Assembly (NCBI GenBank): GCA_948567375.1
Contig: OX419761.1
Span: forward strand, 10,020,243 to 10,084,242
Length of the DNA: 64,000 bases
From: Lunularia cruciata
Lineage: Eukaryota > Streptophyta > Marchantiopsida > Lunulariales > Lunulariaceae
Reading direction: 5' to 3'
Shown: piece by piece, positions 644 through 58,792 of the stretch
How the letters are laid out: every line of letters starts with the position of its first letter
How positions within the stretch are numbered: position 1 is the stretch's first letter
Translations under genes and position numbers: made by a program
The notes under the pieces: model-generated
The model's input: the letters and a program-made list of their open reading frames with translations, nothing else
What the model was told of the DNA's origin: nothing
Database searches by the model: none

Positions 644-1051
644 TGTGGTACCTACATTTTTTTTTAAATTTATGAAGAAGAAGTGTACAGATGAAGTCGT
701 ATTGTGCCTGTATGGCATCAGAAGGCAAAGAATTGTGTCTTTGAGTTGTAACCCAGGGTTAAGTGACTTCGTGTCAGAAGACAAAGTACTTGGATTGGTC
801 TTGTCAGCATTCAACCCAAAGTAAGGAGACTTTGTCTTGAGGATGCTCAACTCGAGGCGAGAATAGTGTAACAACTTTCCTTTGGGGTTGGACATTCAAG
901 AAGGTACCGCACATAAAAATAGCTGGCCTATGAGCGGGGGAAATTTGACACTAACAAGAGCATGCAAAAGGTGTGATTTCTCATTAGAAGCTCAAAGTGA
1001 AGAAAGATTGAGGAGATATGCCACTATAAAATTTGGGATAGAGACAAAGAG

Positions 1052-3613
1052 ATGACAAGTTATTTCCCATTGCCATTAAGGAGTCTTCTTGAGGGAGATT
1101 GGGGAAAAGGGAGTGTAGTAAGAGATGCGCTTGTGCATCAAGAGGAAGTCAGGAGAGTTAGTCCGGGTGTCAGGTGGAAGAATAGTCACCAACCCAAAGT
1201 GGAAGAGAGTAAGATAGGAGGTAGAAAGAAGAACTCAGAATTTGTAGTGAGAAATCATGCAATTTGGAGGTTAGATGTGATTACAAGAATCAAAGTCTTG
1301 AGCAGGCTTTGGATCACATTTCTAGTATGGAATTAGAATCTTAGTTTTCCAAGTTTCATGACCAAGATCATTGAGAGTAAGTGTCTAGACAAACCTGAAG
1401 CATAGGGTAAGAGAGGAAATCCAGCTTGATGGACTTAGTCGGATTGGAGGTTAGTATTCAAAAGAGAGGCGGGTGAGGAGTAGGGAGTCACATTCTTGGA
1501 GAGAGGAGAGGTAGCTGAAGTAACCCAAGAAGTGCGAGATGCCTTTTCTTCAAAATGCCCAAAGAATGGGTATAAGGTTGAGAGCTAAAAAACCCTATCC
1601 GGAGAGGCATCATAGGAGCAATGATGGCTATCTTCAAGCGGAGTGAACCACTTATGTGATGAAACATCAAGTAGTATTTTTCCATAAGATGTTTGTAGGG
1701 GAACCAATCAATTGTGCAAAGTGATTTCATCAGCGCACAAGAAAAATGGTGAGGGGTAAGTCACCTCCACACTACATTGTGTTGTTTATAGCCTTCTTTT
1801 ATTTGGGATTGAATCTGTTGAATGTGGCAGAACAACACAAGATGGTGTCACATTTCCATCCCAACTTAAGGAGAGATGTTGATACGGAGGAGCAACAATA
1901 CATTCTTTAGATCAGGAGGAGTGATGAGTACTATGCACAGATGGGGCAGAGCATGTGGTTGGCGGTGAATGCTCCAAAGTCAAAGAAAAAGAGTTGACTA
2001 GAAGAAGAAGTAGTGGCGACGAGGCCTCAAAAGACCAGGAAGTGAATCCAAAGAAGGATCTAGTGGTAATTGCATTATTGGGAGAATAATCAGAGGGGGA
2101 AGTCGAGTACAAGTCAGAAGACTCAGAGAGAGAGGAAGAACCCAAACTCATGTTGCAGAGTGGTGAAGCAATTAGCGAGAGTGAAGATGAGTAGAGATGC
2201 AGCCAATACCAGAGGAAGGAGAGGGAAAGTTGGAGATGGTAGAAGAAGATAACCCAAAGGAAGAAGACAAAGTTCTAGAGAAAGTGGAGAAGAAGGTTAT
2301 CATTCAGAGAGGTGTCTGCTCTTGAAGAAAAGTGATGTATGAGGTGGGACCAAGTAGAAGAAGAGAAATGGAAAGTGGAACTTTGGAGAGCAAGGAACCC
2401 ATTCCAATCAGGCAACTTTGGCTGAGGAGAAGAGTGTCAGGTAATGAAGAAGCAAAGAAGGAGAAAAGCCCACAAGCAATAGTCAATTAGAGTGGAGTGG
2501 AGTATCTATGCAAGATTGTATGCCCGTTGCTAATAAAGCTGGTAGAGAGGAAGAAAGAGACGTAGTCGGAGTGTTTGGAGGTAAAGACTATATTGCAGGT
2601 GTTGGCAAGATTAGAAGAAGAGAACTTGGAGTTGAAGGAGAGTATAACCCAAGGAGAGGAGCAAAAAGGAGGTACTACAAGTAGATGTAGTAGTATAGAA
2701 TCAAGTAATTGAGAACTAAAAGAGAGAAGTGGGAAGTAGAGAGAAAATAATAGAGCAAAATGGTATAGCTAGGGAAAGACTGATAGCTGAGTATGAAATC
2801 TTGAAACAACAATTTACTGATTCTCAATTTGGGATCATCCATGCTATGGCAAGAGTAGCAGAGTAGAAGCAAGAGCTCAGTAGAGTGATGCAAAGTGTAG
2901 AAGAGATGAAGCAGCTCTGGCAAAGAGAGTTAACAGTGAGGTATAAAGAAGAAAGATTGAGAGAGTTACTTTGGAATTTGGAAGAGAAGGTAGTGTAGAA
3001 AGAAAAGGAGAAGGAGACTCTGAAGGCCAAATTTGAGGTAGAGCTAGCAATGTACTAAGAAAATTGACATGCAGATTGGGAACATGAGAGAAGAATGAGG
3101 CTTGAGCCATTGAAGGAGATAGTAGTGAAGATGAATGTGATGTTGAGTACAAAAGCCAATGTAAGGATTGAAGAAACAAGATTGCATGAGTTAAGATTGT
3201 TGGTGTAGGAGATGAGGAGAAGAAATGTGAAAAATAAGGACTTGAATGCTTTGCTGATTAGTCTCAAAACTCGTGTAGATAGGAAGATATTGGGAGTGAA
3301 AGATAATATCACGATTAGATTAGATTCAGTTAAGTTAGAAATAGATAAAATTTAGAAGGATGTGAGAGCAAAATGCAAGTAGAAGAGATAGGAGTACAAA
3401 TATCTTTGGAGTTGCCATTGGAGATATTAGAGAAAGGTGTGTTGTAGGGAGAAGATGTGTGTAGATTGGCCATGATCAGAATTGTAGTTCAGAGTGAAGA
3501 GGTGTTAGACTTGGTAGAAGATTTAGTAGTTGTGAAACCCAAGGATACAATAGTATGTGAGGTAACTTTGGGTTTGGAAGCCGAGGAAGAAGTAGACATC
3601 GGATCGGAGTAGT
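1052..3613 (+). pseudogene. Family-A ORF relic in A1
   Basis: Decayed copy of the family-A protein. The conserved N-terminal block is readable around 1240-1340 (AIWRLDV, then WITFLVWN). Further on come the YFHP-like and QQYI blocks (1850-1920), the acidic linker, and the coiled-coil part with AWQREL-type and RLEEARLHELK-type heptads (2560-3300). The C-terminal tail ends near 3612. There are many stops, including TGA at the GNPA-Arg site (about 1425). The function of the intact protein is unknown. Confidence 0.65.
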
Positions 3614-4412
3614 AACAATTTTGAGATTTGAAGAGGCAGATATGAAGAGATGCATTGTCATTTCAGATCTACAAGTTGTTAGAGTTGTTAGGAAGCAATT
3701 TAGGAAGTTAGTTAATTGTTGAAGTGCTTTGCTTATTTAAAGGAGGCATTTACAATGTGATGTTGTTCAGTACTCATAATTTCTGAGAATAGATAAAGCA
3801 AAGTGTTGTGAAGCAGTGCTCGTTGCTTGAGCTTAATTCAGAGTATAAGTGTTGTGTGTGTGCTTGTGAGTGTTTGGAGAATTCTGAATTGCAAGTCAAT
3901 GTGATTGTTGGATGTTAGATTCCGTAGCCTTGACCTTCATTCTATGTGTTTGATCTTGAGTGACATGCAATTAGAGCAATGCCTTGACAAATCTTAGAGG
4001 AACTGTAATGTTGGTAGTATTTTGCAGTTGTGGCTGTAGTGTATTGTTGATGTGAAGCAATTTTGATCAAGGGAGTTGTACCTTCAGTGAAGGGATGGAA
4101 CACAATTCTGAGGTGAAGTCATTTTGTGGTGAAGTGCCATTTTTGGGAGAGATTGACTCATTACAATCAAGATTGTTTGGAAAACTTTGAAAGATATGTG
4201 ATTAAGGGTGATATTATTGTTGTGAGAAGACTATGAGTCAATACTTGTTACTCTCTTTTGGGTGTGGTTTTTACCTGAGAGATTAAAGAAGAACTCAAGA
4301 AAACTAATTTGGTTACTTTGCTTTGTATTTGGACATTTCTGGCCAGTATCTCTATGGAGACAAATTGTACTTACATGATTACCACAAAAGTGATATTTGC
4401 TGAGTTGTCACA
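3614..4412 (+). promoter_or_regulatory. Family-A 3' terminal domain of A1 (TATA box to end)
   Basis: Non-coding segment shared by nearly all family-A copies. TATTTAA (3734-3740) is followed after about 50 bp by a GT-rich stretch, then a conserved block near 3980-4030 and a block near 4250-4290. It ends with the terminal signature (ATTACC, AAAAGTGATATTTG, TTGTCACA). If family A is an LTR, this would be the R/U5 part, with transcription starting just after the TATA box; that is an inference. Confidence 0.5.
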
Positions 4413-8186: not shown

Positions 8187-8848
8187 TGAAACCCAAGTGG
8201 CTCCTAATCCCAACAAAGGTAAGGAGATAGCATCCATAGATGTGGTTGAGAGCAAGTACGAGAAGGGAGAGTGCTCAAACTCCAAGGGTCTTAATTTGGA
8301 GTTTTTGGCACAAGAGAAGAAGAGAGCTCATTTTGCAGAGGATGTTCACTCTTCTCAAGGATTTACTTCAAGCAAGGATACTCCTATGTCTACTAGGAGC
8401 ACTTGCACCTCAACACCATCAACAACAAAGACTCCAAGGAAGAAGTTGGGGATGGAGGACTTCTTGATCTCAAAGCAACAATGGAACTACAATGTGTTGG
8501 AGGATGTTGGTAGTCATAAGGCTAACATCACAGTTGGCCAGTTAATTGCTTTGAACCCTACCTTGAGAAAGGAGCTTAGAGGTGGTTTGAGTTCTACAAG
8601 GAGCAAGAAGAAGAAGAAGGCAAAAGCTCCAGTATCAATGGAGGTGGTGGATGCCAAGCCAGCACCATGGGAGGCTTGTGAATATGCCTCCAAGATTGAT
8701 GTGAGAGTGAATGGTCACAACATCAAGGATGCATTGGTTGATGGAGGATCAGCAGTGAATGCCATGTTAGAAAGGTTGATGAAGAAGTTGGGTATGATAC
8801 GCTCAAGACCTTCAACATTTGTGGTGAGCATGGCAAACAAGCAACAAA
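8187..8848 (+). pseudogene. Protease region of element C, truncated
   Basis: Open frame, +1 relative to gag, overlapping the gag end and continuing to the junction with family A. It holds a basic/acidic linker, the block ITVGQLIALNPTLRKEL (protease-proximal), and then ALVDGGSAVNAM with the presumed catalytic Asp codon at 8740-8742. Here the motif is D-G-G rather than D-S/T-G, a variant I would want checked. The frame stops within 30 codons of the flap region because the element is cut and fused to A2. RT, RNase H and integrase of C are absent. Confidence 0.65.
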
Positions 8849-10223
8849 GATGAGCTGAAGATGTACCGCAAAGAGTTGAAGGTAGAGCGCTCTCGAGGAT
8901 ATGAGTCGAAATCAGTAGGAGAAGTTGCAGGGAAGTTGAGAGCAATCTTGAGCATGGAGGGTGAAGAGAGGTTGGAAGAAGCCCGTCTACATGAGATGAA
9001 GTTGCTTGTGCAGGAAACTTGGAAGAGAAAAGCCAAAGATGTAGATATGGACACGTTGCTGATCCAATTGAGGGAGCGGGTAGACCAGAAGATGTTAGAA
9101 GTAGAAGACAATGTTAGTCTTAGATTAGATTTAGTCAATTTGGAGTTAGAGAAAATTAGGAATAGTGTGACAGCGGATAGGAAATCCAATGTTGCAGAAG
9201 TAGGAATTCAAGTGTCATCGGACTTGTTATTTGACACATTAGAGAAGAGTGGGTTAGGAAATAAAGAGTTAGATAAGTCACTCCTTACTGCAATTGTAGT
9301 TCCTAGTGTAGAAGTAGTAGAATTAGTGTAGGAATTGGTAGAATTAGCTATACCCAAAGAAGGAGAAGTAGTAGGAAGATCATTGGGTTTGGAAGCAGAT
9401 GATGAGGTAGACATTGGATCGGGGTAGTATAGTTTTGAGATAGGAAGAGGTAGATATGAAGAGATGGATTGTTAGTTTAGATCTACAGGTAGGAAAATAT
9501 GTTAGGAAGCGGTGCATAAGTAGGAAGAACTGCCGTTTGCTTCAGTATTTAAGGGGAGCATTTGCAGTATTATGTTGTTCAGTATTCAAATTTCTGAAGT
9601 TAGATAAAGCAAAGTGCTTTTTTCAGTGCTCCTCGCTTGAGCTTAATTCCGATTGTCAATTCCGTGTTTGTGTTTGTGAGTGTGTGGAGAATTCTGAAGT
9701 GCAAGTCAGTGTGTCTGTGGATGTTGGATTCTATAGCCTTGATCTTCATTCTGTGTGTTTGATCTTGAGTGAAGTGCATCGGAGCAATGCCTTGACAGAT
9801 CTGAGAGGAATTGTAGTGTTGGTAGTATTCTGCATTTTTTAGTGCAACACAAAGTTGATGTGAAGCAATTTCAATCAAGGAAGTTGTGCCTTTAGTGGAG
9901 GGGTGGAACACAATTCTAAGGCAAAATTGTTCTTCATAGTGAAATGTCATCTTTGGGAGAATCTGAATCATCACAATCAAGAGTTGTTTGGACAGAATTT
10001 GCTATGTTGTGATTATGAGTATGTAGTCGTGACAAGTTGTCTAGATTATGAGCTTGTTACTCTCTTATGGGTGTAGTTTCTACCTAAGAGATTAAAGAAG
10101 CAATTAAGAAGAACTACAAGTTACTATTTGACTTTGTATTTGACCAATTCTGAATCGTATCTTTGTGGGAACAAACTTTACTTACACGATTACCGCAAAA
10201 GTGATATTTGCCGGGTTGTCACA
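8849..10223 (+). mobile_element. Family-A fragment A2 (5'-truncated)
   Basis: Begins inside the coiled-coil segment of the family-A ORF (…DELKMYRKELKVERS) directly after element-C protease sequence, and runs to the normal family end TTGTCACA at 10223. It contains TATTTAA (9546-9552) and the full terminal domain. The left end is a recombination or deletion breakpoint, not a transposition end. Confidence 0.75.
8861..9426 (+). pseudogene. C-terminal part of family-A ORF in A2
   Basis: About 156 codons open, then one stop at about 9331, then the family tail to 9426. It shows the conserved order ERSRGYES, RLEEARLHE, VQETWKRKAKDVDM, LRLDLVNLELEKIR and DTLEKSGLGNK. Mostly charged and helical, predicted coiled coil. 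It is among the least-decayed copies of this domain, which suggests a younger insertion or late capture. Confidence 0.65.
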
Positions 10224-10597: not shown

Positions 10598-13594
10598 TAT
10601 GGTACCCACATTTCTTGTTTTGTTTTGTTTTGTTAAATTTTTGAAGGAAAAGTGTGTCAAGGAAGCCAAATTACAAAGGAAAGGATGGACTTAGGTGTCT
10701 TTGGAGTAAACCCAAAGAAGTTGACCTTGAGTTGAGAACCAAAGTACTTAGATGGGGTTATAAAGAGACAAATCCAAAGAAGGGTGTCTTCAAAACAAGA
10801 AGCAAAGGCCAATACAAAGATGATGTAACAACCTCTCTACATATCAAGCTAGTCAAGAATGTACACTTCAAGAAATAGTAGAGGCAAAAGAAGAGTACCT
10901 TGACAGTGAGAGGAAACCAACACACAAAAGAAATGGGAGTCAATTTGGAAATTGATTGAAGAATGACTACACTTTGAGGTACTATAAAATTGTGATTGCA
11001 TAGGGGGAAATCAAACATGTCAAGTAGATACCCTATTCCTCTGAGCAGTTGTCATGCAATAATGTGTATCAAGAAGCAGATTGAGAGTGAAATTTTCTAA
11101 AGTCTAGAAGGGGTTAGAGTGTCACATCCAGGAGAGAGGATAATCTCCCTGTGCCAAAGAACTAGTGAGCAGATCATGGCAAAGAAGACTAAGATCACAC
11201 TTGTAGTGAGGAGTTTTGCAATTTGGTGATTAGATGTCATACATAGGATCAATGTCTTGAATAGACTTTAGATCACATTCCTAACATTGAACAAGAATGT
11301 TAGTTTTCCAATGTCATGGCAGACATAGCTACCTATAATTGTGAGGAAGGCCCCAAAGTTATAGGGAAGAGAGGAAATTTGGCTCAATGGACTAAGTCGG
11401 ATTGGAGGTTAATATGAGAGAAGGAAGCAAGAGATAGCCCTTACTTAGAGTTGCCCTTGGAGGAGATGGATGAAGAACTAAAGAAGAAACACCAAAAGGA
11501 GGGAAGAGGCAAGAGGCCAATGACCGCTGACCCGTAGGTCCGAGCTCAGTCTATAAGGAAAAAGTAAGCTTGGAGGAGATGTCATTGAAGGTAAAAAGAT
11601 CAAGACTTCAGGGGAAGGCTGTGGCGGAAGAAGTGTCAATAGCCGCAAAGTACAAAGATGGAGCTGAAGGCAAAGGAGGCTTTGATGGGGTGAAGTACTT
11701 ATCACACATTGTGAGTCCATTGTTTGAGCTACTAAAAAAGCAAAAGAAGGTGATCTAGCAAGATCATGTGGAGGTGAAGAATGAGTTATAGGTAGTGAAG
11801 TATTTGTTGGACAAAATAAAGGAATTGGAGGAGATTGTATCTCAAAGAGAAGGAGAAGCTGAGGAACTTTGAGTGGACGTAGTCTTGAAGAAGAAGACTT
11901 GAGAGAAGTTGCAAGAGAGTTTTGAGAAGCATGGAAGAGAGCTGTACAATCAAGCCAAAGAGTTGAAAGAGCAGAAAACATTGCTGGCAAAGATGAAAGG
12001 TGAGGTCAGCAAAGTTTGCATTGAAAGCATTCATGTGAAGGCAACTATGATGGAATAGGAGTTATAGAGTCTGAAGAAGAGTGCAGCAGGAAAGGATCAA
12101 GCATGGCAGAGCGAGTTGGCGATTCGACACCAAGAGGAGGAAAGATTGAGAAGCTTGGTAAGAAGTGATGAGGTGTAGAGTGCTTAGTATGCGAAGGAAC
12201 AAAAGATGCTTTCTGCAAAGATGAGTACAAAGATATACACTGAAGAGTTGAAAGTAGAACGATCTCAAGTGTATGCATCAGACTCCATAAGAGAAGTTGT
12301 TGGAAGACTATGAGCAATGTTCAGCACAAAATCTGAAGGAAGATTAGAGGAAGCAAGACTACATGAGTTAAAAGTTGCTAGTGCATGAAACTTGGAAGAG
12401 AAGAATGAAAGATGTAGATATGAATACTTTGTTGATTCATTTGAGGGAATGAGTAGATAGGAAGATAATTGAGGTAGGAGACAATGTAAGTCTCAAATTA
12501 GACTTAGTGAATTCAGAGTTAGAGAGACTTTGGAGTAGTGGGAAGGAAGATAAGAAGTCCAAAGTTGTAGAAGTAGGAGTATAGGTGTCTTTGGGTTACT
12601 TATCTAAGACATTTGAGAAGAGTAGGTCAGGAGATAAAGAGTTAGATAAGTTTCCCACCATTGCAATTGTAGTTTGTAGTTCTTAGTGAAGAGGTAGTAG
12701 AAAGAGCAAAGGAATTAGTAGAATGAAATAGAATCAAAGAATGAGAAATGATAGGAGGATCATTGGGTTTGGAAGCCAAAGACAAAGTAGACATCAGATT
12801 GGAGTAGGAAAAGATTTGATATTTGAAGAGGCAAATATGAAGAGGTGCATTGTCATTTTGGATCTGCAGGTTTGTAGAGTTGTTGTAGAAAGGTATTTTT
12901 GTTAGTAACTATCAAAGTGATTAGGCTATTTAAAGGAGACATTTGCAATGTATTGTTGTTTAGTATTCATAATTTCTGAAGATAGATAAAGCAAAGTGCT
13001 AAGTTTAGTGCTTGTTGCTTGAGCTTAATCCCAAGTCTCAATTTTGTGTGTGAATGGAGAATTTTGAAGTGCAAGTCATTGTGCTTGTTGGATGTTGGAT
13101 TTTGCAGCCTTGATCTTCATTTTATGTGTTTGATCTTGAGTGAAGTACAATCAAAGCAATGCCTTGATAGATCTAAGAAGAATTGTAGTGTTGATAGTAT
13201 TTTGCATTTGTGAGTGCAACACAGGGTTGATGTAAAGAAATTTTGATCAAGGAAGTTGTGCCTTCAATGGAGGGGTGGAATACAATTTTGAGGCAAAGGT
13301 GTTTTGCAGTGAAGTAGTCATCTTCAAAGGAATCTGAATCATCACAATCAAGATTTGTTTGGATAGAATTTGGTGGAGTTGTGATTATGGAGTGTTAATT
13401 TGTGAAGAGACTATGATCAGTGCTTGTTACTCTCTTTTGGGTGTAGTTTCTAACTAAGAGATTAAAGATGAAAATGAAGAAGACATACATTGTTATCATT
13501 TTCTTTGTATTTAGATATTTCTGAATCGTACTTCTGCAAGAACAAACTTCACTTACCTGATTACCACAAAAGTGATATTTGTTGGGTTCTCTCA
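10598..13594 (+). mobile_element. Family-A element, copy A3 (about 3.0 kb)
   Basis: Starts TATGGTACCCACA (TGTGG with one change) and ends GGTTCTCTCA. Exact 5-bp TSD CTTCC at 10593-10597 and 13595-13599. First TATAAA 10983-10988, second TATTTAA 12927-12933. It lacks about 0.75 kb of the ORF relative to A4. It splits family-B copy B1. Confidence 0.85.
11190..12808 (+). pseudogene. Family-A ORF relic in A3
   Basis: Heavily broken. A recognisable N-terminal block lies at about 11200-11300. It then jumps from the GNPA/SDWR site (about 11380-11410) to the linker near 11450, consistent with an internal deletion. Coiled-coil segments are readable at 11570-12060 and 12100-12500 and the C-terminal tail ends near 12808. 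No activity expected. Confidence 0.55.
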
Positions 13595-13615
13595 CTTCCC
13601 TTTGACGAGATCTCC

Positions 13616-14800: not shown

Positions 14801-15595
14801 AGAAAGTTCCCTAGTGCTCATGTCCAGCCAAAACTCTCCATTTGTCTAATTTTCTTGCCCTTTTTGTCCAAAGTCTTCTCTTTCGATTGTTTCCTCCTTT
14901 GCCCAAGCAGTCCACAAGCTTTTCTTTTGAGAAAATCTCCCTTTTGTCCCTTTTCTAGCCATTTCTCTTCTCTCTCTCCTACTTACAGCAACCTCCAACT
15001 CTTGAGCTCACTCTAACATAAATTACTTCCGGCTTGCAATAACACAAAGTAAAATTCAGGGCTTACTACAACACAAAATATTCCCAAGGCAAGGGTAACA
15101 CAAAACTTTGCGTCCATGGAATAGTAACATAAATAACTCCCAAGCTTATGTAACAACCAAAACAAAAATTCCGAGCTTATCTAGCATAAAAAAAATCTTG
15201 AGCTTACATCAATGTGGTACCCACATCGTTTGTTTTTTTTAAATGGGGAAGAAGAAGTGTATAGAGAAGTTGGATTGTGCATGTATGGCCAAAGAAGGCA
15301 AAGAAAAGAGTCTTCAGGATGAAACTTGAGGTAACGTGGCTTTGGGTCATAAGGCAAAGTACTCAGAATTGCCTTGTCAGCATACAACACGAAGTAACAA
15401 GTCTTTGTATCAGGGTTGCTCAACTCGAGACAAGGAAAGTGTAACAACTTTCCTTTGGGGTGAGAGATTCAAGAAGGGACCATTCAAAAATGGCGGTCAT
15501 ACACGTGAAGGACACTTGACAATGATAGGAGCCTGCAAGAGGTGTGATTTCTTGGTAGAAACTCAAATTGAAGAGAGGCAAAGAAGGCATGACTC

Positions 15596-15602
15596 TATAA
15601 AA
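15596..15602 (+). promoter_or_regulatory. First TATA box of A4 (ORF promoter candidate)
   Basis: TATAAAA at the position where A1, A3, A6, A7, A9, A12 and A13 all carry TATAAA, about 380 bp from the element start. The first ATG of the frame lies only 21 bp further on, so if this is the true core promoter the real start codon is probably downstream. Confidence 0.5.
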
Positions 15603-15622
15603 GTTGGGCTAAAGATGAAGCA

Positions 15623-18980: not shown

Positions 18981-18985
18981 ATCAA

Positions 18986-25353: not shown

Positions 25354-25357
25354 CCGC

Positions 25358-41752: not shown

Positions 41753-42077
41753 TATGGTACCCACATTTTTTTAGTTTTGATGAGTTTTGAAAAATAAGTG
41801 TATTGAGAAAAAAAAATTGCAATCAAAGGAAGAAGAAAACAATGGACTTATGTATCTTCAGAGTAAACCCAAAGAAGTCAACTTTGGGTCAAGAAAAGGA
41901 AGTGCTTGGATAGAGCTTGCAAAGAGATAAACCCAAAGAAGGGCATCTTTGGAATGGGAAGTTCAAGCCAATACAAAGAAGATGTAACAACCTTTTTGTG
42001 GGTCAGGCCAACCAAGAAAGTACACTTAAAGAAAAAACAAAGGTAGGAGAAGAATAATTTGAGAGTGGCAAGAAACA

Positions 42078-45000
42078 TGTGACAATCCAGCAAATAGCAC
42101 TTTTGCGGTAATCAGGTAAGTAAAGTTTGTTCCCATAGAGATACAATTCAGAATTGGTAAAATAAAAAGTCAAATAGTAACAAAAAATTCTTCTTGGTTG
42201 TGCCTTTAATCTCTCAGGTAGAAACTACACCCAAAAGGGAGTAACAAGCACTAGATTGCAGTCTTGTCACAAATCACAACACCTATAATCACAAATCTTT
42301 CAAATCTTTCCAAACAATCTGATTGTGATAATTCAATCTCTCCCAAAAATGACTACTTCATTATAAAATGACTTCACCTCAGAATTGCGTTCCATCCTTC
42401 CACTAAAGGCAGAACTTCCTTGATCAAAATTGCTTCACATCAACTCAATGTTGCACTCACAAATGTAAAATACTACCAAAACTACAATTCCTCTCAGATC
42501 TGTCAAGGCATTGCTTTGATTGCTACCCACATAATGGAATCAAAGATGTAGAATCCAACATCTAACACTCAGAATTGCACTTCAAATTTCTCCCAACACT
42601 CACAAACACACACACAAAATTGATACTCAGAATTAATCTCAACCGACGAGCAATGAGATCAGCACTTTGCTTTATCTATTCTCAAGAATATGAAAACTGA
42701 ACAACAATATATTACAAATGCCCCCTTTAAATAGGAAAAGTCATTCAGAAATTAATTTACTTCCTAAACCATTTCCTAACAACTTTACCAACCTGTAGAT
42801 CCAAAATGACAATGCACCTCTTCATATCTACCTCTTCTTATCTCAAAATTGTTTCTACTCCAATCCGATGTCTACTTCTACTTTGGCTTCCAAACCAAAG
42901 GAAAGTCCCTTGACCACATATACTTTAGGTTCTACAACTTCCAAATCTTTCTACCATTTCTTACATGTCTTCACTCTGATCTGCAATCAAAGGTATGGGT
43001 AACTTATCTACATCCTTATCTTGCAACCCACTCTTCTCTAAAGTCTCAAATGACAAATCCAAAGTCACTTGCAGTCCTACTTCTCTTCCTTTGGGTCTGA
43101 CATATATAGTACTCCAAAGATTATCTAATTCCAATTTAACCAAACCCAGCCTAATAGAAATAATATTCTCTACATCTAACATCTTTCTATCTATCTGAGT
43201 CTAAAGACTAATTAACAAGGCATTCAAGTCCTTGTCCTTTGCATTCTTACACCTTGCCTCTTGCACAAGCAATTGTAACTTGTGTAACCTCAACTCCTTC
43301 ATTCTTACTTTGGCTTTTGTGGTTAACCTTGCCTTCATCTTTACAATCACTTTTTCAACAGATCCTGTTGACTGCTCCTTCTATCTTTCCTCCTCTGTCA
43401 CAGCTCTACTCAATTTCAATTCCTCTTCATACTTTGCTATGCAATCCTCCAATTCCTACACGTATTGGTAATCTTTGCTTGTCTTCACAAGATCTCTCAA
43501 CCTCTCTTCCTCTTGATAGCGCTTGGTTAATTCTTGTTGCCAAGTTGTTGCCTTCTCTTTTACTTTCTATCAAAATCCGTCAAGCTCCTCCTCCTAAACT
43601 TCAACCAATTCTCTTTTATTGTCTTGCTCTAACTTTACTTTTGCTTGTAACTTTTCTATCCAAAGTCTCTCATGCGTGACTTCCTTCACTTTCACTGCTA
43701 ACTCCCTTCCTTGCTTTTCAAACTTCTCTTGAAAATTTTCATTTATCTTCTTTTGCAATGTTGCATCTACCCACAACACTTCTCTTTCTTCCTCTCCTCT
43801 GATCATACTCTCTTTCAACTTCAAATTTTTAGATTCTAGTCTCTCCAACACCTGCAATACATTTGTTACCTCAAAATGCTCACTCTATATCTCCTTCTTC
43901 TTCTTCTTCTTCTCCATCTGCAGCAATAGTGGACATACAACATCTAGAAGGTACTCTTTTACACATTTATTCCTCTTCTACCATTTCTTTAGGGATTTTG
44001 TCAATCTTGCTCTTCCCTTTTGAATCCGATGCTTTACTACAAAGTCAAGATCTTTGTACTTTCAACTATACATCATCCTCTTAACTTTCATTGTCATCCA
44101 AATTGATGATGTGATGTGCCGCTTTTGAACTTCCTCCTTCTTGCATGACTTGCATTGGCTTGGCCACCAACCCTTCTTCGGCCTCTATCACCAACTTGGC
44201 CACAATCCTCTCTCCTTCCCATGCTGCTCAATTTCTTTGTGCAGGGAAGTCACCTTCTCTTTATCTTTTTGCACCTCAGCTTCATCCTCACTCTCCTTGT
44301 TGGATTCTTCACTTTGTAAGGTTACCTCTACTTCTCCTTCCTTTGACCCCTCCAATGCAGACTTTGCTTCTACTTCCAATTCAACCTTCTCTTCTTGTGC
44401 AGTATTTTGGATTTTCTTTCCTTCCCTCTGCCCAATCCCTCTTAACTTATGAGGCAGTATTGGAGAGCTCTCCACCTCAAGTCGGCTCCTTTTCTTCTTT
44501 CTTGGCATAAGGACAAACATCTTCCTATTTTGTCCCATTATTGCATAGTGGTTGTCATTGCTTTTCAACTGCCAAATATATTGTTGCTCCTTGTCATTGG
44601 CTTCTTGATGCAGATCGGGATGGAAGTCAGACACAATCTTCTTCTTCTCATTGTTACTCAGCAAGTTCAACTCAAAGTACAAGTGCGCTACAAAAGAAAC
44701 AAAGTAATGCGGTGGTGTCAAACTCCTCCAATTTAGCACCATCTACCGCATCCTCTGATAAAATCACTTTGCCATATTAATTGGCTTTCTTGCAAACATT
44801 TTATGGAAGAACACCACTTGTTCCTTTGTAACGTAGGTAGTAGGCTTGGATTTTGACAATGCTATCATGGTGCTTATGGTACTTCTCCACATTGAGTCTT
44901 GATAGTCTCCACCTTGTACCCATTCTTCATATGCTTTGAGGTGAAATAATTTTTGACTTCTTGGGTACCCATTCTTTTGTAACTTCTCCTTTCTCCAAGA

Positions 45001-45865
45001 TCATAGCCTCATGCTCTGCTCCACTCTCTTGTTCTAACACCAATCTCCAATCCAACTTTGTCCATCGAGCCGGATTACCTCTTTTCCTTGTTGTTGTTGG
45101 CCATCTACATAGTCACTTGCTGTGATCTCTACCATGAAATTGGGAAAGCTCAAGTTCCAATTTCATGCAAGGAAAGTAATACAAAGTTTACTGAGAACTT
45201 CAATGCGGGCCATAATGTCTAACCTCCTAATCATTGGGTTTTGCACTTCAGTGTAGTGCACTTCCTGATTCCTTTCATTTTACTCTCCTTTGTGCTATGC
45301 TTCTAAAAGACGATTCTCCTCTCCATTGGGTCTGCAATTTTAAATCCCTCTGGATTCACAAAATCTTCATTCACTACCATCCCTCTCCTCGGGTCTCCCT
45401 CAAGATAAATTTGCAAAGGTAAAGGAACTTCACTTGTCATTCATCTCCTTCTTGATTCAAAACCTGACTTTATAGTCCAACGTTTGTCAATCATTCTTTG
45501 AATGCTGATCTACCAAGAAATCATACCTTTTGCATGCACTTCTATTGTCATTGTCAATTCCTCCTACTTGTGCCTTAGCTGTTTTGTGTGTGGTACAATC
45601 TTGAATTTCTATTCCCAAAGGAAAGTTGTTACACTATCTTTGCATCAAGTTGATCACCTTTAGGTGAAGTATCCTTACTTAGGGTTAATCTGACAGATCC
45701 AATCCGAGTATTGACAATTACTGACACAAGGTAACTTTCTTTGGGTTGATACAAAAATGTGAATCTTCTTCTTTCTTCCATCCTTTGTGCTCAATTCCCC
45801 TTCAATTGTACACTTCTTTGAAAAACCCCTTAAACCAACTCAAAACAAAAAACATGGGTACCACA
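42078..45865 (-). mobile_element. Family-A element A12 (minus, full length, 3788 bp)
   Basis: On the plus strand it starts TGTGACAATCCAGC and ends GGGTACCACA, the reverse complement of the family ends. Exact 5-bp TSD AAACA at 42073-42077 and 45866-45870. Second TATA box as TTAAATA at 42727-42733, first as TTTATA at 45469-45474. It sits in the 5' region of A13, which itself starts inside A11, giving three levels of nesting of the same family. Confidence 0.9.
42850..45410 (-). pseudogene. Family-A ORF relic in A12
   Basis: Minus strand. Block 1 near 45210-45110 (broken). Blocks 2-3 give an open stretch 44742-44188 starting VLNWRSLTPPHYFVSFVAHLY, then FHPDLH, EQQYIWQL and an acidic linker (VEVTLQSEESNKESEDEAEV). 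The coiled coil is readable at 43857-43594 and around 43500-43250, and the tail 43182-42961 reads ISIRLGLVKLELDNL and ETLEKSGLQDKDV. Confidence 0.65.
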
Positions 45866-45929
45866 AAACAAACATGCAAAAGAAGTATGAGTTGATTTCA
45901 AAATTGACTGAAGAATGACTGCACCTTCA

Positions 45930-48170
45930 AGTACTATAAAATTAAGATTGTGTAGGGGCAAATTGAACATGTCAAGATGATAACTTGTCCCTTTGAGTAG
46001 TCATCTTGTAGTAATGTGCATCAAGAAGCCAATTGAGAGTGAAATTTTTTGAAGACCTAAAGGGTTTAGAGTGTTGTGTCCAAGAGAGTGGATAATATTC
46101 CAAAACCAAAGAACTTGTGAGCAGATCATGGAAAAGAAGAGTAAGAACACATTCATAGTGAGGAGTTTTGCAATTCGGCAATTAGATGTATTAGCTAGAA
46201 TTGAAGTCTTCAGCAGACTTTGTATTACAATTTTGGCCTGCGATTGGAATGTTAGTTTTCTAGGTTTCATGGTAGAGATAGCTGGTAGTAAATGTGAGGA
46301 AGGCCCCGAAGTAATGTGGAAGAGAGGAAATCCGACTCAATGGACTAAGTTGGATTGGAAGCTAGTATTGGGGAAAGAAGTGGGAGATGCAATTAGACTG
46401 TGAAGTTGCGGAAGAGACCATAGAAATCAAGAATTTTGTTCTTTGCTCCACAAACCAACAATGGCTACAAAGTGGAGTCCTATCAGGATCCAATTAAACA
46501 AAGCATTGTGAGGGTGTTAGTGGTAGTGTTCAAGCTTAAAAAAACAATTTATGTGAACATGCAGTAGATAGTCTTCTTCCACCAAATGTTTGCAAGAGAG
46601 AAGGTGAACTAGGCAAAGTGTTTCCACCACGAACAAGGCAGATGATTGTCAATTGGCGGACAAATTCCTGGCACACTACTTTGTACCATTTGCAGCACAT
46701 TTCTACTTGGGATTAAATCTGCTGACCATGGAGGAGAAGCATTGGATGGTTTTGCATTTCCATACCAATCTCTAACGTGAAGCAAATGAAGAGGAGAAAC
46801 AATACATTCTGCAATTACAATCCAGTGGTGCTCATTTCATCAGGACAGGACATAGGAAGATGGGGGAAGGAAGAATTCCAAAGACAAAGAAGCGGACTAA
46901 ACCTGAAGGAGTAGCATTACCTTTGCCACAACAAAAGACCCAATGACTAAACATGTGAGGTAAGGAGGCAGTGAAGGACAAGGCTTCAAGCACAAAGTCT
47001 GAAGGAGAGACGGAGTCGAAGAGAGAAGACTTTGAAGAAGATGAGCTCACATTACACAGTGAGGAGTTTGGCAATGAGAGCAAAGGTTAAGATGTAGTCC
47101 AACAATCGGTCGATGCAAGGATGGCAAAAGACAACAAGGAGTTCCATGCAACAATTGATCGTATGGAGGGAGGAGATTGCCCTTGTTTAAAGTTACCTAT
47201 GGAGGAGATGGAAGAAGAACCAAAGGAGGAAGTCAAGAAAGGAGTAAGATCAAAGAGGTTATTGCAAGTTGTACCTATAGGTCCAAGCCAAGTGAAGGAA
47301 GAAGAAGCAAGCTTGGAAGAAATGCCATTGAAGGTACAAAGATCAAGATTTTGGGGTAAGGTTTTGACTGAAGAGTCAATGGAGATGAAATTTGAAGACC
47401 AAGAAGAAGAAGAAGAAGAAGAAGACTTTGATGGGATGGTGTACTTGTCAAGGATCATGGGTCCGTTGTTGTTGCTAATGAACAACAAGAAGAAGGAGAT
47501 ACAAAAAGATCATCAAGAGGTGAAGAATGGGTTGCAAGTGATGAAGTATATGATTGAGGAAGTAAGAGAATTGAAGGAGTGGGTAACCTAAAAGGAAGAA
47601 GAAGCTGAAGAACTTCAGATGGATGTAGTCTTAATGAGGAAGACTATTGAGAATTTGCAAAAGAGTTTTGATAGGTGTGGAAGAGAGATGAATGGTCAAA
47701 CCAAAGAGTTGAAGGAGCAAAAAGCATTGATTGAGAAGATGAAAGGTGAAGTATGCAAAGCTCATATTGAAGGCATACATGCAAAGGCAATGGCGGCTGT
47801 GATGGAGCAGGAGTTGGAGAGCTTGAAGAAGAGTAGTAGAGAAAGACCAAGCATGGCAGAGGGAGTTAACAATCCAACACCAAGAGGAAGAAAGACTAAG
47901 AAGTCTGGTAAGAAGTGTTGAGAATCATATTGCCCAATATGCAGAGGAGAAGAAGATGTTGGCAATCGAGTACAAAAATGAGTTAAAGGTGGAACAATCT
48001 TAGGGTTATGCATTGGAGTCGATAGGAGAAGTTTTTGGGAGAATGAGAGTGATGCTGAGCACAAAAGTAGAAGTGAAGCTAGAAGAGGCAAGACTACACA
48101 AATTGAAATTACTTGTGCAAGAAATTTGAAATAGGAAAGCAAAGGATGTAGATATGAATAATTTTTTGAT
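45930..48170 (+). pseudogene. Family-A ORF relic in A13
   Basis: Block 1 at 46140-46270 (VRSFAIRQLDVLARI, CITILACDWNVSF) followed by a GNPTQW site (46340), where the Arg position reads Gln. Blocks 2-3 near 46450-46830, decayed. Open linker/coiled-coil stretches 47121-47591 (KEFHATIDRMEGGDCPCL, DGMVYLSRIMGPLLLLM) and 47619-47921 (AMAAVMEQELESLKK). Ends abruptly at the A14 junction. Confidence 0.65.
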
Positions 48171-48503
48171 TAATCTTCTCCTTTTTGTTGAAATTCCACT
48201 ACTCTACTCTTCACTTTGTAGCATCAACTCTAGTTCTTCTTCTTCTCTTGAGTCTTTGTTTTGTACTCAGCTTTGCCTTCCGATTCTCTTGCTCCTGACG
48301 ACTCATCAAGTACTACAACCTCTTGCCTTGGGTTCACCTTCCTCACCTTCTTTGGCATAACTGGCAACAAACTTTCCTCCAGACGACTTTGCTTCTTCAT
48401 CTTTGGGATGGTCATTAATACTCTCAGATACTTCCCTATGCATGCATAATGTTCATCACTACTTTGGATCTATTGGATATACTATTGTTCCTTGTCATTT
48501 GCA
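48171..48503 (-). mobile_element. Family-A fragment A14 (minus, linker region only)
   Basis: Minus-strand 48415-48230 reads TIPKMKKQSRLEESLLPVMP, the post-block-3 linker of the family-A ORF, with QYSIS/DEHYA-like residues just upstream to 48500. It abuts the plus-strand A13 coding relic at about 48170 and the Gypsy fragment D2 at about 48504. Both ends are breakpoints. Confidence 0.6.
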
Positions 48504-49557
48504 GTCAGAGGAGATCAGATTCAAGTGTTGAGGCTTCCACCTCATATGCTGGTGATAGAGATACCTTGATTTTGTGTGTAGAGCAACACAAATAGATGCC
48601 TTTGACACAATGACTAGGAGTGCAGTATGTGTTCTAGAGCCTAGAGGAGCATCAGTGGAGTTGGAGAGGCTGGGAGATAGGTAAGACTCCCCCAGTCTTT
48701 CATGCTCTTTGAGGCATTGTAGACAACATCTATGGCTCCTAAACATCCCACTATAGGTGTGGTAGGTAGTGATGAGATCCATGATAGACTATCTACTAGT
48801 CAGCCACTTGCCACTACACAAATTGAGTCTAGCATGATGTTGGGACGGCTCAACTGATTATGCATTGCCCTTTGTTTTCAGCCAATGGCATGTTTACATT
48901 GGGAGTTGACCCAACCCCAATGTTCTGATTGGCTGCCACACTTTGCGAGAGTAGGGATGATATAGTCCCTACTACTAAAGCAAAGGTGGTTGATAGTGGA
49001 GTTGACTTGGTTGAGGAGCATGGGATTTTCTCAACAACCAATGATTTATGGTAGGCAACAAATGCTAGATTAGAGGAGTTGCCAGCTAGACCTGCCATTG
49101 AGAGAGCACGGTTCACACTTGGTATTGTCCTATTGGATAACCAGAGATGGATTTTACATTTGGTGGGACCTTCAAGGAAGGTCTATACACCACAAAGAGT
49201 CTTATTAGACTTTGATGCACAACCCTTTATGTTGGAGCAGGCTGCAATTGTCGGTCTAGAGTTATAGAAGACCAATGTGGAGAGGTGTCCATTTAAGATC
49301 CAAACATCTTAAGGAGGTGGTTTGACATATTATATCACATGGAAAGAGCTAGTTGTTTAGATTCAGCCTGGTCATCCGACTGATAGCTTGGTGGTGAGAG
49401 CTCAAGCTAATGCAATAATAGTTGAATCATATGATGTGCTAGTTGATGGAGCAGTGCTATACCCCATGGGTTTCAATATTGACTATTGGGAGGAGACAAC
49501 CTCCTATAGACCAGGTTTGCAATCAGGTGAGGGACAAATATATTGCCTACCAATATT
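48504..49557 (+). pseudogene. Gypsy fragment D2, gag end and protease
   Basis: Plus-strand homologue of the minus-strand D1 region around 63080-62300. Begins RSDSSVEASTSYA-like, matching D1. The stretch 49079-49267 reads PARPAIERARFTLGIVLLDNQ, then the protease site LLDFDAQPFMLEQ, where D1 has LLDSGAQPLML; the S-G to F-D change would destroy the aspartic protease. Continues beyond the active site (ITWKELVV, ESYDVLVDGAVLYPMGFNIDYWEE) to the A9 insertion. Confidence 0.7.
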
Positions 49558-52500
49558 GTGACAACCCGGCAAATATCACTTTTGCGGTAATTGGGTAAGT
49601 AAAGTTTGTTCCCGTAGAGATACGATCCAGAATTGGTCAAATACGAAGTCAAAAGTCACAATTGCAGTTCTTCTTGATGACTTCTTCAATCTCTCAGGTA
49701 GAAACTACACCCAGAAGAGAGTAACAAGCTCACAATCTTGACAACCTGTCACGAATACACACACATAATCACAACATAGTCAATTCTGTCCAAACAACTC
49801 TTGATTGTGATGATTCAGATTCTCCCGAAGACAACACTTCACTGCAAGACCAATTTTGCCTCAGAATTGTGTTCCACCCCTCCACTAAAGGCACAACTTC
49901 CTCAATCAAAATTGCTTCACATCAACTTTGTGCTGCACTCACAAATGCAGAATACTAACAACACTACAATTCCTCTCAGATCTGTCAAGGCATTGCTCCG
50001 ATGCACTTCACTCAGGATCAAACACACAGAATGAACATCAAGGCTGCAGATTCCAACATCCACAAGCACATTGACTTGCTCTTCAGAATTCTCCACACAC
50101 TCACACACACAAACATGAAATTGACAATTGGAATTAAGCTTAAGCGACGAGTACTGAGAACAGCACTTCGCTTTATCTATCTTCAAAAATGTGAATACTG
50201 AATAACATTGTACTGCGAATGCTTCATTTAAATACTAAAGCAAACGGCAGATTTGCCTACCTAGGCACCACTTCCTAACATCCTTTCCTACCTACGGATC
50301 CCAAAGGACAATCTAACTATTCATATTTGACCCTTCCTATCTTAAAATCGACTTTTATTGATGACTACTTCATCATTGGCTTCCAAACCCGATGATCTTC
50401 CTACTATTTCACCTTCTTCGGGTACGACTGATTCTACTAATTTCTTTACTAATTCTACAACTTCTTCACTACAATCTATAATTGAACTCTGGGTTACTCT
50501 ATCTACACTCTTATTTCCCGACCCACTCTTCTCTAATGTGTCACTTCTCAAGTCCGATGACACCTGAATTCCCACTTTTGCGACATCAGGTTTCTTCTCC
50601 CCTATCACACTATTCCGAATCTTTTCTAATTCCAAATTGACTAAATCTAATCTAAGACTAACATTGTTCTCTACATCTAACATTTTCCTATCTACGTGTT
50701 CTCTCAACCGAATTAATAAGGTGTTCATGTCCACATCATTGGCTCTTCGCTTCCAAGTTTCCTGCACAAGTAACTTTAACTCATGCAGACGAGCTTCTTC
50801 CAATCTTCCTTTAGCCTCTGCGCTTAAGATTGCTTGTAATCTCCCAGCAAGGTCCCCTACTGATTTCGATGCGTATCCTCAAGAACGCTCCACCTTCAAC
50901 TCCATTCAATACATTTGCAACTCGTCTTCGTATTCTGCATCGAGCATCTTCTTCTCCTCTGCATACTGCACTTATTGCTGCTCCGCACTCTTGACAAGTT
51001 TATGCAAACGCTCTTCTTCTTCTTGCCTGGACGCCAATTCTCTCTGCCATACTTGATCTTTTGCTGCGGCACTCTTCTTCAAGCTGTCCAATTCTTGCTC
51101 CATCATGATGTTCATCGCCTTAAAATGGACATTCTTGACGTGCACATTACTTACTTCCTCCTGCATCTTGCTGAGCCACATCGCCTGCTCCTTCAACTCT
51201 CCAGCTTGCTTTTGCAGGTCCTTCTCCTTCTTTGCACAACTCTCTTGTAGCTCGCTCAACATTTTCTTCCTCAAGTCTTCCTTCCTCCGAAGATCTTCAA
51301 TTTCCGCACTTCTTCGGATTTGATGTGCTTGTAGCTCTTTCACTTCCTTCAACAGATGCCTCACCACTTGCAGCTCATTTATCCCTTTTACTCAATCTTG
51401 GGCAATTCCCATATGATGTTCTTTCAATAGCTCGAGCATAGGTGTGATCACTCTCATCAAATATGCTATCCCGCCTAAAGTTTCTTCTTCATCATTGCCA
51501 CCTTTGTCTGGAGTCTTTTCCTGTGTCATCGGCTCCTTCATCCAAAGTCTTGATCTTTGTATCTTCGTAGTGTCGGCACTATCTTTGTCTTGGCCTCTTG
51601 AACTCGGCCCCGCAGAATACTCCGTCTTTACTTCGGGTTTTGGCTTGTTCTCCACCATTGCCTCACCCGCCTCACTCACCACCACCGATTGCTGGACTTC
51701 GGGCTCTCCCTCACTTTCACTACCCGACTCCCCACTCTTCAACGTGAGCTCTTCTTCTTATGAGTCCCTCTTCGTGCGACTCAGTTTCTTCATCCGACTT
51801 CGATCCCAAAGATGCTCTTCTCACGACGTTAGTGGTCTTCAACATCAGCCTCTGCGTCTTGCATTGGATAGGCGATGGTTCAGCTTCTTTGGGTTTACTT
51901 TGCTTCTTTGTCTTTGGATTGGCCACATCTTCAATCTTCCACTGTCCCGTTCTCGCAAAGTATTCGTCATTCACCCGCAGCTGAAGCATATACTGTTGCT
52001 CTTCTTCGTCAGCTTCTCGCCTCAAATCAGGGTGCATGTGGGAGACCATATGATGCCGCTTGTCTTCAGAGAGCAAGTTTAGGCCAAAGTAGAAATGTGC
52101 TGCAAATGGTGCAAAATAATGCGGTGACGAGCCCATTTGCCAATTTACTACCATCTGCTTGGTTCGGTGATGGAAACACTTCGCCCAATTCATGGGTACT
52201 CTTGCAAACATCTGGTGAAAGAAGACCGCCTGCTGCATGGTTACATACGTTGTATGCTCCGGCTTGAACATGGCCATCATTGCCCCTACGATACTTCTTC
52301 GGATCGGGTCCCGATAGGACTCCACCTTGTAACCATTCGTAGTTCTTGGAGCAAAAAACGAATTACGAATCTCCGCCGTCTCCTCTGCAGCATCACACTT
52401 CCGATAGAAGGTGATTCATATTGGCTCTCCTGCTTCTCTTCCCAGGACTAACTTCCAATCCGACTCAGTCCATCGAGCCGGATTGCCTCTCTTCCCCTCC

Positions 52501-53250
52501 ACTTTGGGACCCTCCTCACAATTACTGGCAGCGATCTCTTCCATTACTCCCGAGAAACTGAAATTCCAGTTCCATGCTAAAAAGGTGATACGAAGTCTAA
52601 CCAAGACTTTGATCCTAGCTACTACATCTACCCTTCGAATTGCAAAACCTCTCACTGCCAGCACGTTGGCCACCTTCTTTGCCATGATTTGTTCTCTTGT
52701 TCTACGCTGTTGGAAGATCAGCCCCTCTCCTGGACGAGACACTCTAACTCCCTCAGGGTTTTGGAAAATTTCACTCTTGATGGGCTTTTGGACACGCATT
52801 CCTATAAGATGACTACTCAAAGGAATTGGAAATTTACTCAACAAATTCAACTTCCGCCTGCGCAGTCGCAATTTTATATTGCCCCAAATTGCAGTCATTC
52901 TTCAATCAATTTTGTCTGTGAGTTTCTCTCTTCTATGCGCACTCCCGGTCACTGTCAAGACATGCTTCTTTTGCCCCTACTGTTTCTTGAAATGTACTTT
53001 CTTGCCACGTACCGAGGTTGTTAAACGGTCTTCATCATTCCTGCATTTTCCAACCCAAAGATGATGATTTTTGGCCTGCTTCCGGCGTACTTCTCTGCTG
53101 AGTACCTCCATCATCGGATCCAATGTCAGCTTCTTCGGCTTTCCTCTGAAGTTACTTTCACCTCTTCTTTGTTTGCAATTTGACTTTTCCGTGCTTACTT
53201 CATCTCTTAAACACTACTAACCATAAAAAACAAAAAATGTGGGTACCACA
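49558..53250 (-). mobile_element. Family-A element A9 (minus, 3693 bp)
   Basis: Plus-strand start TGTGACAACCCGGCAAATATC and end GGGTACCACA. Flanks AATAT (49553-49557) and AGTAT (53251-53255) are a TSD with one mismatch. Second TATA box as TTAAATA at 50228-50234, first as TTTATA at 52873-52878. Splits Gypsy fragment D2. High similarity to A7 by eye suggests both are young members of one subfamily. Confidence 0.88.
50342..52898 (-). pseudogene. Family-A protein ORF in A9 (most complete copy)
   Basis: Minus strand in four long pieces: 52898-52416, 52325-51720, 51742-51392 and 51367-50342 with a few stops. Block 1: VRGFAIRRVDVVARI, ITFLAWNWNFSFSG. KRGNPARWTESDWKLVLGRE keeps the ancestral Arg codon. 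Block 2: VESYRDPIRRSIVGAMMAMF, TTYVTMQQAVFFHQMFARVP. Block 3: HYFAPFAAHFYFGLNLLSED, HMHPDLRREADEEEQQYML. Then an acidic linker, YLMRVITPMLELLKEH, a coiled coil of some 300 residues and the tail with SDTLEKSGSGNKSVDR. Reconstructed length about 800-850 residues. No catalytic motif, signal peptide or membrane segment is visible. The strongly charged composition suggests a structural or nucleic-acid-associated protein; this is inference. Confidence 0.75.
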
Positions 53251-54419: not shown

Positions 54420-56310
54420 TGTGGCAACCCGGAAAATATCACTTTTGTGATAATCAAGTAAGTAAAGTTTGTTCCCGTATAGATACTAATAAAAGATGTC
54501 CAAATACAAAGTCAAACAGTAACAAGTTGTTCTTCTTGGTTGCATCTTTTATCAAGGTAGAAACCACATCCAAAAGAGAGTAACAAGCATTGATTTGTAG
54601 TCTCGTCACACAAAAATGTCACACTAATCACAACTCCATCAAATCTTTCCAAACAATCTTGATTGTGATGATTTAGTCTCTTGCAAAAATGGCACTGCAC
54701 TAAAAATGACTTTGTCTCAAAATTGTGTTCCACCCCTCCAATGAAGGCACAACTTCCTCAATCAATATTGCTTCACATCAACACTATGCTGCACTCATAA
54801 ATGCAAAATACTACCAACACTACAATTCCTCTCAAATCTATCACGGCATTGCTCCGATTGCACTTCACTTAGTATCAAACACACAAAATAAAGATCACAG
54901 CTATGGAATCCAACATCCAACAAACACATTGATTTGCACTTCAAAATTCTCCACACTCACAAGCACACACATAGTTGTTCCTTGAATAAAGCTCAAGCGA
55001 CAAACACTGAAGTTAGCACTTTGCTTTATGTATTCTCAAGAATAATGAATATTGAACAACAACATACTACAAATGCCTCCTTTAAATAGGCTGAGCTCTT
55101 CAGCAATTATCTATCAACTATACCGTTCTACAACAACTTTTACTACCTGCAAATCCAAAATGACAATGCACCTCTTCATATCTGCCCCTTCAAATCTCAA
55201 ATCTGTTACTATTCCAATCCAATGCTAACTTCAACTTTGGATTCCAATCCAAAAGAATACTCCTTCATCTCTTGTACTTCAGGTCTATCTAATTCTACTA
55301 AGTCCTTTGCTATTCCTACTACCTCTTCACTAAAAACTACAATTGCACTAGTGGGTAACTTATCTAACTCTTTATCTCCCGACCCACTCTTCTCTAAAGT
55401 ATCAAGTATCAAATCCAAAGACACATGCACTCCTACTTCTGCCACTTCCGGTCTAACTACTATTGATTCCTTTGCTAATTCTACTATATCCTCATCAAGA
55501 ATTGTAATTGAAAGCATGGGTACACTATCTACGCCTTCAATTTGTAACCCAGTTTCCCCTAATTGCTCATGTTATTGACTCAAAGACACTTAATGTCTGA
55601 TCCTGCACTTTGGGTTCATTCACTATTACTATTTCTCTTCTAATTTTATCTTATCTTCAATCAAAATTGAAATTGAAGTCATGGGTATCCTAAATATCTT
55701 CTTTTTCCCTACTCTAACTTCCTTTGATGCCTCTAGCAAGACTCCCAAAGTCACCTTCACTACACCCTGAAGTCCGACCACCTTAGATTTAGTCACCTTC
55801 ATCTTAAGGCAAAGAAGCTTCTAACCAAAAGTTGTAGAGACCCAAAGAACATAAACCCAAAGTACTATGAACCCAAAGACACTCAACTATTGTATACATC
55901 TACTCCCAAAACTTCAAATGCTTGTAACTTTTGCTATAGACCTCCAAAATTTACAATTTTGGTGGCAACAAAAAGCCCTAAACGAGATGCTTTCAACAAA
56001 ATATAGCACAAATGATTTGGATTATTTGTCATTGAGATATGGCCACCGCAGTAATCCTGACCTACAACTTCTATTCCTCCTTTAGGTCTGCATTCCTTCA
56101 ATGTCTGATCCAAGTTTTTCTTCCTCTCACGCAAACTAAGCTTCTTTGGATCTGATTCAATCCAAGTGCTTCTTCCTCCAACACAAAGTTGACTTTCTTT
56201 GGCTTGATCAAAAGATAGGTTTCTCTTCATTTCTTCTCCATTTGGTTTCAATTTGGTTTTAGCAAGGTACTTTTTCAAAACTTGTCCAAAATCAAAAATG
56301 TGGGTACCAA
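54420..56310 (-). mobile_element. Short family-A variant, copy A10 (minus, about 1.89 kb)
   Basis: Plus-strand start TGTGGCAACCCGGAAAATATC and end GTGGGTACCA. TATA box as TTAAATA at 55082-55088. It shares the short interior of A8 (the stretch 55870-56290 matches the reverse complement of about 31320-31720) and a C-terminal ORF relic. The TSD is unclear, probably because of small changes at both flanks. Confidence 0.72.
55209..55600 (-). pseudogene. C-terminal remnant of family-A ORF in A10
   Basis: A 102-codon open minus-strand stretch (55517-55209) reads ITILDEDIVELAKESIVV, VSLDLILDTLEKSGSGDKEL, IVVFSEEVVGIAKDLVELD, and ends with a FGLESKVEVSIGLE tail. Upstream, near 55580-55690, a second ITSISI-type segment continues through stops. 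This is the longest open tail of the short subfamily. Confidence 0.55.
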
Positions 56311-58700: not shown

Positions 58701-58792
58701 TGTGACAACAAACTGCTGTACCTTGGTCTGCATATCGTGCCACCAATAATGACTCTAGAGTAAGCTATATGTTTGCTTTACTCCAAAATGTC

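Follow-up and report, generated by a model that had tools for sequence, protein, structure and literature searches.

A conserved open reading frame inside the probable 3.7-kb long terminal repeats of a Ty3/gypsy family of Lunularia cruciata

A stretch of 64,000 nucleotides of Lunularia cruciata (assembly GCA_948567375.1, contig OX419761.1, positions 10,020,243 to 10,084,242 of the forward strand), called here the window, contains one dominant repeat family, found as copies or fragments at 13 loci whose union covers 36,701 bp, that is, 57% of the 64 kb. We consider it highly probable that these repeats are the 3.7-kb long terminal repeats (LTRs) of a single Ty3/gypsy family, nearly all of them solo or broken, and that they carry a selected open reading frame (ORF) situated upstream of a TATA-like box.

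The repeat family and its ends

Five copies, named A1, A4, A7, A10, and A12, are full length (3690–3788 bp), and both ends are kept in eight, namely these five together with A3, A8, and A14; A5, A9, and Y are copies split by later insertions, while A2 and a piece of 326 bp are fragments (Table 1). The termini read TGTG...CACA, with mutated ends in A3 (TATG at its start and CTCA at its end), A7 (CATA at its end), and A8 (CACT at its end), and the two ends of the repeat have only this TGTG/CACA in common, in inverted sense. An exact 5-bp target-site duplication (TSD), a match with a chance rate of about 1 in 1024, flanks five of the eight two-ended copies, that is, A3 (CTTCC), A4 (ATCAA), A7 (GAAGA), A8 (GGTAC), and A10 (TGTTT); the duplications of A1 (CTGAA/CTAAA) and A12 (ATACT/ATATT) match at four of five bases, and A14 has none although both of its ends are present. 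Because A7 lies within A5 and A10 within Y, each with its exact TSD, the family has inserted into itself.

Copy A5 and the identity of the repeat

It is at A5 where the repeat is joined to coding sequence of a recognisable kind. Directly upstream of this copy and on the same strand lies an RNase H matched by Pfam RT_RNaseH_2 (19306–19602, E 3.3e-12) and RT_RNaseH (19606–19902, E 7.8e-11), followed by an integrase-like stretch (20306–20905) that matches an rve-positive (Pfam) fragment at 58241–58648 with E 1.6e-10. In the pol of Ty3/gypsy elements, RNase H comes before integrase, and the order beside A5 is the same; of the reverse transcriptase (RT), only the last part remains, with a 67-aa piece that has no Pfam match. 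The RNase H query gave two matches among 68 candidates, including one with 65% identity over 41% of the query to AXG93_86s1000 of Marchantia polymorpha (P0001), which is a 109-aa RNase H fragment.

The last pol frame stops at a TGA (21255–21257) that overlaps a polypurine tract (PPT), GAGAAATGGGG (21256–21266), and A5 begins at 21269, after the dinucleotide TA. Of the plus-strand positions, 3.3% are taken up by 11-base windows containing no more than one pyrimidine, but only 15 of 64,000 by windows of this kind that end in GGGG; a PPT-like run within 20 bp of the start was found in one of the ten copy starts tested, that of A5, the other nine being without it. The flanks of A5, GGGTA on the 5' side and CTCGG on the 3' side, differ, and this lack of a TSD is what is expected of a 3' LTR. 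Since A5 stands directly behind RNase H and integrase, with the stop codon overlapping the PPT, the 3.7-kb unit most likely served a Ty3/gypsy element as its LTR; the remaining copies are best explained as LTRs that are solo or broken, the solo ones having probably been left by recombination between LTRs.

The same copies could be explained by an independent mobile element, 3.7 kb long, either of an unknown class or a DNA transposon moved by a retroviral-type integrase such as a Ginger-like one, which would have its own gene and, by chance, TG...CA ends and 5-bp TSDs. TSD-bearing copies without an internal region, the absence of repetition between the two ends, and an ORF under selection all agree with such an element, but we regard it as extremely improbable, given that the ORF matches no transposase or other enzyme, that the inverted repeat of the ends measures only 4 bp, and that A5 is found 11 bp after the pol stop, behind a PPT and without a TSD, a position that chance insertion would not explain.

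The original prediction, made on the same DNA, had counted at least 13 copies or fragments over about 37 kb, with TGTG...CACA ends, no repetition between the two ends, and seven 5-bp TSDs, and all of this was recovered here, five of the duplications being exact and two having one mismatch (its numbering departs from ours after A8, its AAACA copy being A10 and its AATAT/AGTAT copy A12). Its statement that the element fits no standard class did not stand, since TG...CA ends, a 5-bp TSD, and non-repeating ends are features of solo LTRs and A5 is joined to RNase H–integrase and a PPT. Ends that are direct repeats of each other had also been named there as a finding that would speak against the proposal; this comparison could not have revealed an LTR, whose own two ends are not repeats of one another. 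A new class of element was thus rejected, with pol, PPT, and LTR joined at A5; the feature that stays unusual is the selected gene within the LTR.

The open reading frame, its position, and its product

The ORF runs in the sense orientation of the element and is broken in every copy looked at. In A7, one frame of 819 codons contains six in-frame stops, compared with a mean of 46 and a minimum of 24 in 500 first-order simulations of that frame; the ATG sits in another frame, and the length of about 845 codons that we give to the gene comes from joining this upstream ATG through the frameshift. The ORF of about 800 codons claimed originally does exist as a long frame, but not intact in any copy looked at; the accompanying claim that it lacks gag, RT, integrase, and transposase motifs agrees with our Pfam searches of ORF pieces, which returned none of them.

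Selection on this frame is seen in the pattern of substitutions. Between A7 and A12, the divergence of the ORF at codon positions 1, 2, and 3 is 11.4, 11.5, and 27.8%, and in the same three phases it is 8.6, 7.5, and 9.8% over the 798 bp 3' of the ORF and 14.0, 16.0, and 9.0% over the 432 bp 5' of it. For this pair, the nonsynonymous and synonymous divergences of the ORF (dN and dS) are 0.112 and 0.572, with a dN/dS of about 0.20, and the ratio of the uncorrected nonsynonymous and synonymous proportions (pN/pS) lies at 0.26–0.49 in nine of nine comparisons, all of them made with A7 and hence not independent. Against A1, A4, and A10, the pS of A7 reaches 0.76–0.78, that is, synonymous sites are saturated, with a pN/pS of 0.48–0.49, and because the protein is conserved in copies with saturated synonymous sites, the ORF appears to have been kept through a long active history. 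These comparisons argue that it was a real gene, preserved by selection during the active life of the family. The 3' part of the LTR (about 800 bp) differs by about 9% between A7 and A12, below the ORF dS of 0.57, and since this non-coding region is less diverged than the synonymous sites of the ORF, it must be strongly constrained, which suggests a regulatory constraint on the region after the ORF.

The motif TATTTAA, with 13 occurrences over both strands of the window, is found at the same aligned place in all 11 copies having that region. Because this conserved TATA-like box lies downstream of the ORF, the ORF probably belongs to U3, the unique 3' region of the LTR, with a predicted promoter and a predicted transcription start just past TATTTAA. 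Given that the pol stop overlaps the PPT, no ORF can fit between pol and the LTR in the element at A5; the position of the LTR ORF is thus that of the sense additional ORF in other plant elements, but inside the repeat.

The short copies A8 and A14 have in common with the LTR its start (about 150 bp) and its last 1.0–1.1 kb, most of the ORF being gone, and they are 77% identical to each other over their whole length (1911 aligned columns). A remnant of the C-terminal end of the ORF is recognisable in both, and for this reason deletion is favoured over an ancestral form without the ORF. Since LTRs without the ORF have also spread, its protein may work in trans, or it may not be needed. The spread without the ORF in cis that is suggested by the likeness of A8 and A14 would agree with the ORF being a host gene captured in the LTR and without any role for the element. 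We judge this unlikely, because the protein was conserved despite saturated synonymous sites and so was kept through a long active history, and no host relative was found in the protein database, though few plants may be included there.

Another way to account for A8 and A14, which moved or spread without most of the ORF, and for the lack of an internal region beside the other copies, is to see in the repeats the LTRs of some non-autonomous element like the large retrotransposon derivatives (LARDs), using foreign enzymes, with the pol beside A5 belonging to a helper family or being a chance neighbour. The fusion of pol stop, PPT, and LTR start at A5, with no extra sequence between them, and an ORF selected as in a protein-producing family make this alternative very improbable.

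Under the preferred reading, that is, LTRs of a Ty3/gypsy family with its own selected gene, transcription would start just past TATTTAA, and each genomic RNA would hold the ORF once, within the 3' LTR that follows pol. Reverse transcription would then copy U3 to the 5' side, so that the gene would stand twice in each new insertion. The message for the protein could be a spliced or a subgenomic RNA, or one started by a promoter within the initial 350 bp of U3. From the selection on the ORF and its position in the element, we infer that the protein was an accessory factor of the element. As to its origin, it is plausible that an additional ORF, formerly located between pol and the LTR, became part of the LTR through a shift of the PPT in use to a site upstream of this ORF, beside the pol stop. 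A bolder and rather doubtful extension is that, after this shift had made a third Ty3 gene part of the LTR, solo LTRs served as complete gene cassettes (upstream sequence, ORF, and downstream region) and as a reservoir supplying the protein in trans, A8 and A14 included among its recipients, with the gene outliving the recombination that removes gag and pol.

Several results weigh against the preferred reading and should be kept in mind. Pol and PPT stand beside a single copy only, A5, and this pol is decayed, with shifted reading frames and integrase pieces that have no Pfam match of their own; the 64-kb window contains no complete two-LTR element, with direct copies flanking gag-pol, and inspection by eye of the eleven listed 3' ends revealed no primer binding site after them, although none is expected where no 5' LTR is present. 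The boundary between U3 and the R region is based on the TATA-like motif. In addition, no relative of the ORF product was found in Pfam, the PDB, or the protein database: ten ORF pieces gave no Pfam family above its curated cut-off (best E 0.0076), and twelve aligned pieces from eight copies reached no curated cut-off either (best E 0.036, by one member), with the plant mobile domain (PF10536), Transposase_28 (PF04195), and Athila ORF-1 (PF03078) not among the matches of these aligned pieces at E up to 10. A PDB profile search with the ORF found no relative, and neither did the searches of 5.8 billion proteins, with none of 8000 scored candidates at E up to 0.001 and, in a second search, none of 3086 at E up to 10, nor a scan of prokaryote genome contigs, with 38 pattern matches. 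The AlphaFold model of the N-terminal domain is all helical but of too low confidence to interpret (mean predicted local distance difference test score, pLDDT, 39; predicted template modelling score, pTM, 0.25). Residues 481–700 of the A7 reading are 40% charged, and a heptad test gave no significant sign of a coiled coil, its score being reached in 92 of 300 shuffles.

Neighbouring elements and comparison with known systems

Table 1. Copies of the repeat family and features associated with them in the window
Feature	Position	Strand	Remarks
A1, full solo LTR	644..4412	+	TSD CTGAA/CTAAA
A2, 3' part of LTR	8844..10223	+	abuts gag-protease coding 7263-8850
A3, LTR with internal deletion	10598..13594	+	TSD CTTCC exact
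A4, full solo LTR	15213..18980	+	TSD ATCAA exact
Decayed Ty3/gypsy pol end (RNase H, integrase)	19158..21257	+	TGA stop 21255-21257; directly upstream of A5
Polypurine tract GAGAAATGGGG	21256..21266	+	then TA, then LTR start 21269
A5, 3' LTR of Ty3 element	21269..31249	+	split by family-C insertion (~22922-25375) and nested A7
A7, full 3690-bp solo LTR	26198..29887	+	nested in A5; TSD GAAGA exact
A7 ORF in predicted U3, ~845 codons	26545..29090	+	ATG 26545, frameshift near 26660, 6 in-frame stops, own stop 29088
A7 TATA-like box TATTTAA	29210..29216	+	~120 bp past ORF stop
A8, short LTR, 1.86 kb	31304..33165	+	most of ORF gone; TSD GGTAC exact
A9, LTR in two pieces	34810..41624	-	34810-36296 and 40014-41624, split by family-C insertion
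Y, LTR split by nested A10	41753..48176	+	pieces 41753-42077 and 45866-48176; 3' end not found
A10, full solo LTR	42078..45865	-	nested in Y; TSD TGTTT exact (AAACA on + strand)
Fragment from LTR middle, 326 bp	48177..48502	-	
A12, full solo LTR	49557..53250	-	TSD ATACT/ATATT
A14, short LTR, 1.89 kb	54420..56311	-	most of ORF gone; no TSD

Besides the LTR family, the window contains other mobile sequences. The plus strand at 7263–8850 encodes a Ty3-type gag (Pfam Retrotrans_gag, E 1.2e-10) and protease-like sequence, cut off in the protease domain at the start of A2, and could represent the 5' half of an element to which the RNase H–integrase and 3' LTR at 19158–31249 belong. A1 was considered as the 5' LTR of this gag-protease region and rejected: a near-exact TSD of its own flanks it, it is not followed by a primer binding site, and its distance from gag is 2.85 kb. 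Separate from the gag frame, at 6599–7036, there is a reading frame with a stretch like a CCHC zinc knuckle (zf-CCHC, E 0.0027, below the cut-off). A different Ty3-type pol lies on the minus strand at 57709–60179, with RVT_1 at E 7.9e-06 (below the Pfam cut-off), RT_RNaseH at E 1.2e-29, and rve at E 6.5e-09, and its RNase H region shares 29% identity with that beside A5.

A second mobile family, family C, which is CT-rich and has tandem repeats, is inserted in A5 (22922–25375) and in A9 (36295–40017), with a further right end near 18985–19157. Its ends are TGTC...GACA, and there is an apparent 4-bp duplication, CCGC, at the first site, and CCGC also borders the second on its right. The accessible part of PMC6317226 gives NCGN as the preferred target of the Phygy elements of Physcomitrella, and a link between them and family C is only a lead. 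A further repeat family is present at 48505–49255 and 53265–54414 on the plus strand and at 61128–63077 on the minus strand, two stretches of it, 79–80% identical and in opposite orientation, lying around A12 and A14. Rfam and tRNA scans of the window found nothing.

A selected ORF in an LTR would be duplicated by reverse transcription and would not be removed by the formation of solo LTRs, and it would go unnoticed in repeat annotation, where LTRs count as regulatory DNA. The presence here, side by side, of LTRs that have the ORF and LTRs that lack it offers a direct test of what accessory proteins do. A literature search found no plant case of an ORF inside an LTR, which is weak evidence of novelty, as subscription journals were mostly outside its reach.

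As regards layout, there is a likeness to the LTR ORF of mouse mammary tumour virus (MMTV), sag, which is located in U3 and is likewise a sense ORF of the LTR, 3' of the other genes. The likeness goes no further than layout, since MMTV is a mouse retrovirus with env and its product is a presumably unrelated superantigen, and the ORF described here, at about 845 codons, is far longer. The LTR retrotransposons of bdelloid rotifers also have a captured third ORF (ORF3) and many solo LTRs, but ORF3 is not described as lying inside the LTR in the accessible part of the source (PMC5408684). For plant non-chromovirus Ty3 elements, LTRs of up to about 5 kb are reported (PMC6317226, in part), and the available parts of PMC7264820 and PMC6317226 place the additional or extra ORFs (aORFs or eORFs) either downstream of pol and ahead of the 3' LTR or at other internal sites. 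Similar in their components are those plant Ty3/gypsy elements with such ORFs, Athila, Ogre, Retand, Grande, and RIRE2, which, as far as the available parts of these sources go, likewise have a Ty3-type pol, large LTRs, an extra ORF 3' of pol, and a 5-bp TSD. In these elements the extra ORF is described there as internal, whereas in the Lunularia family it lies inside the LTR, with no room left for it between the pol stop and the PPT.

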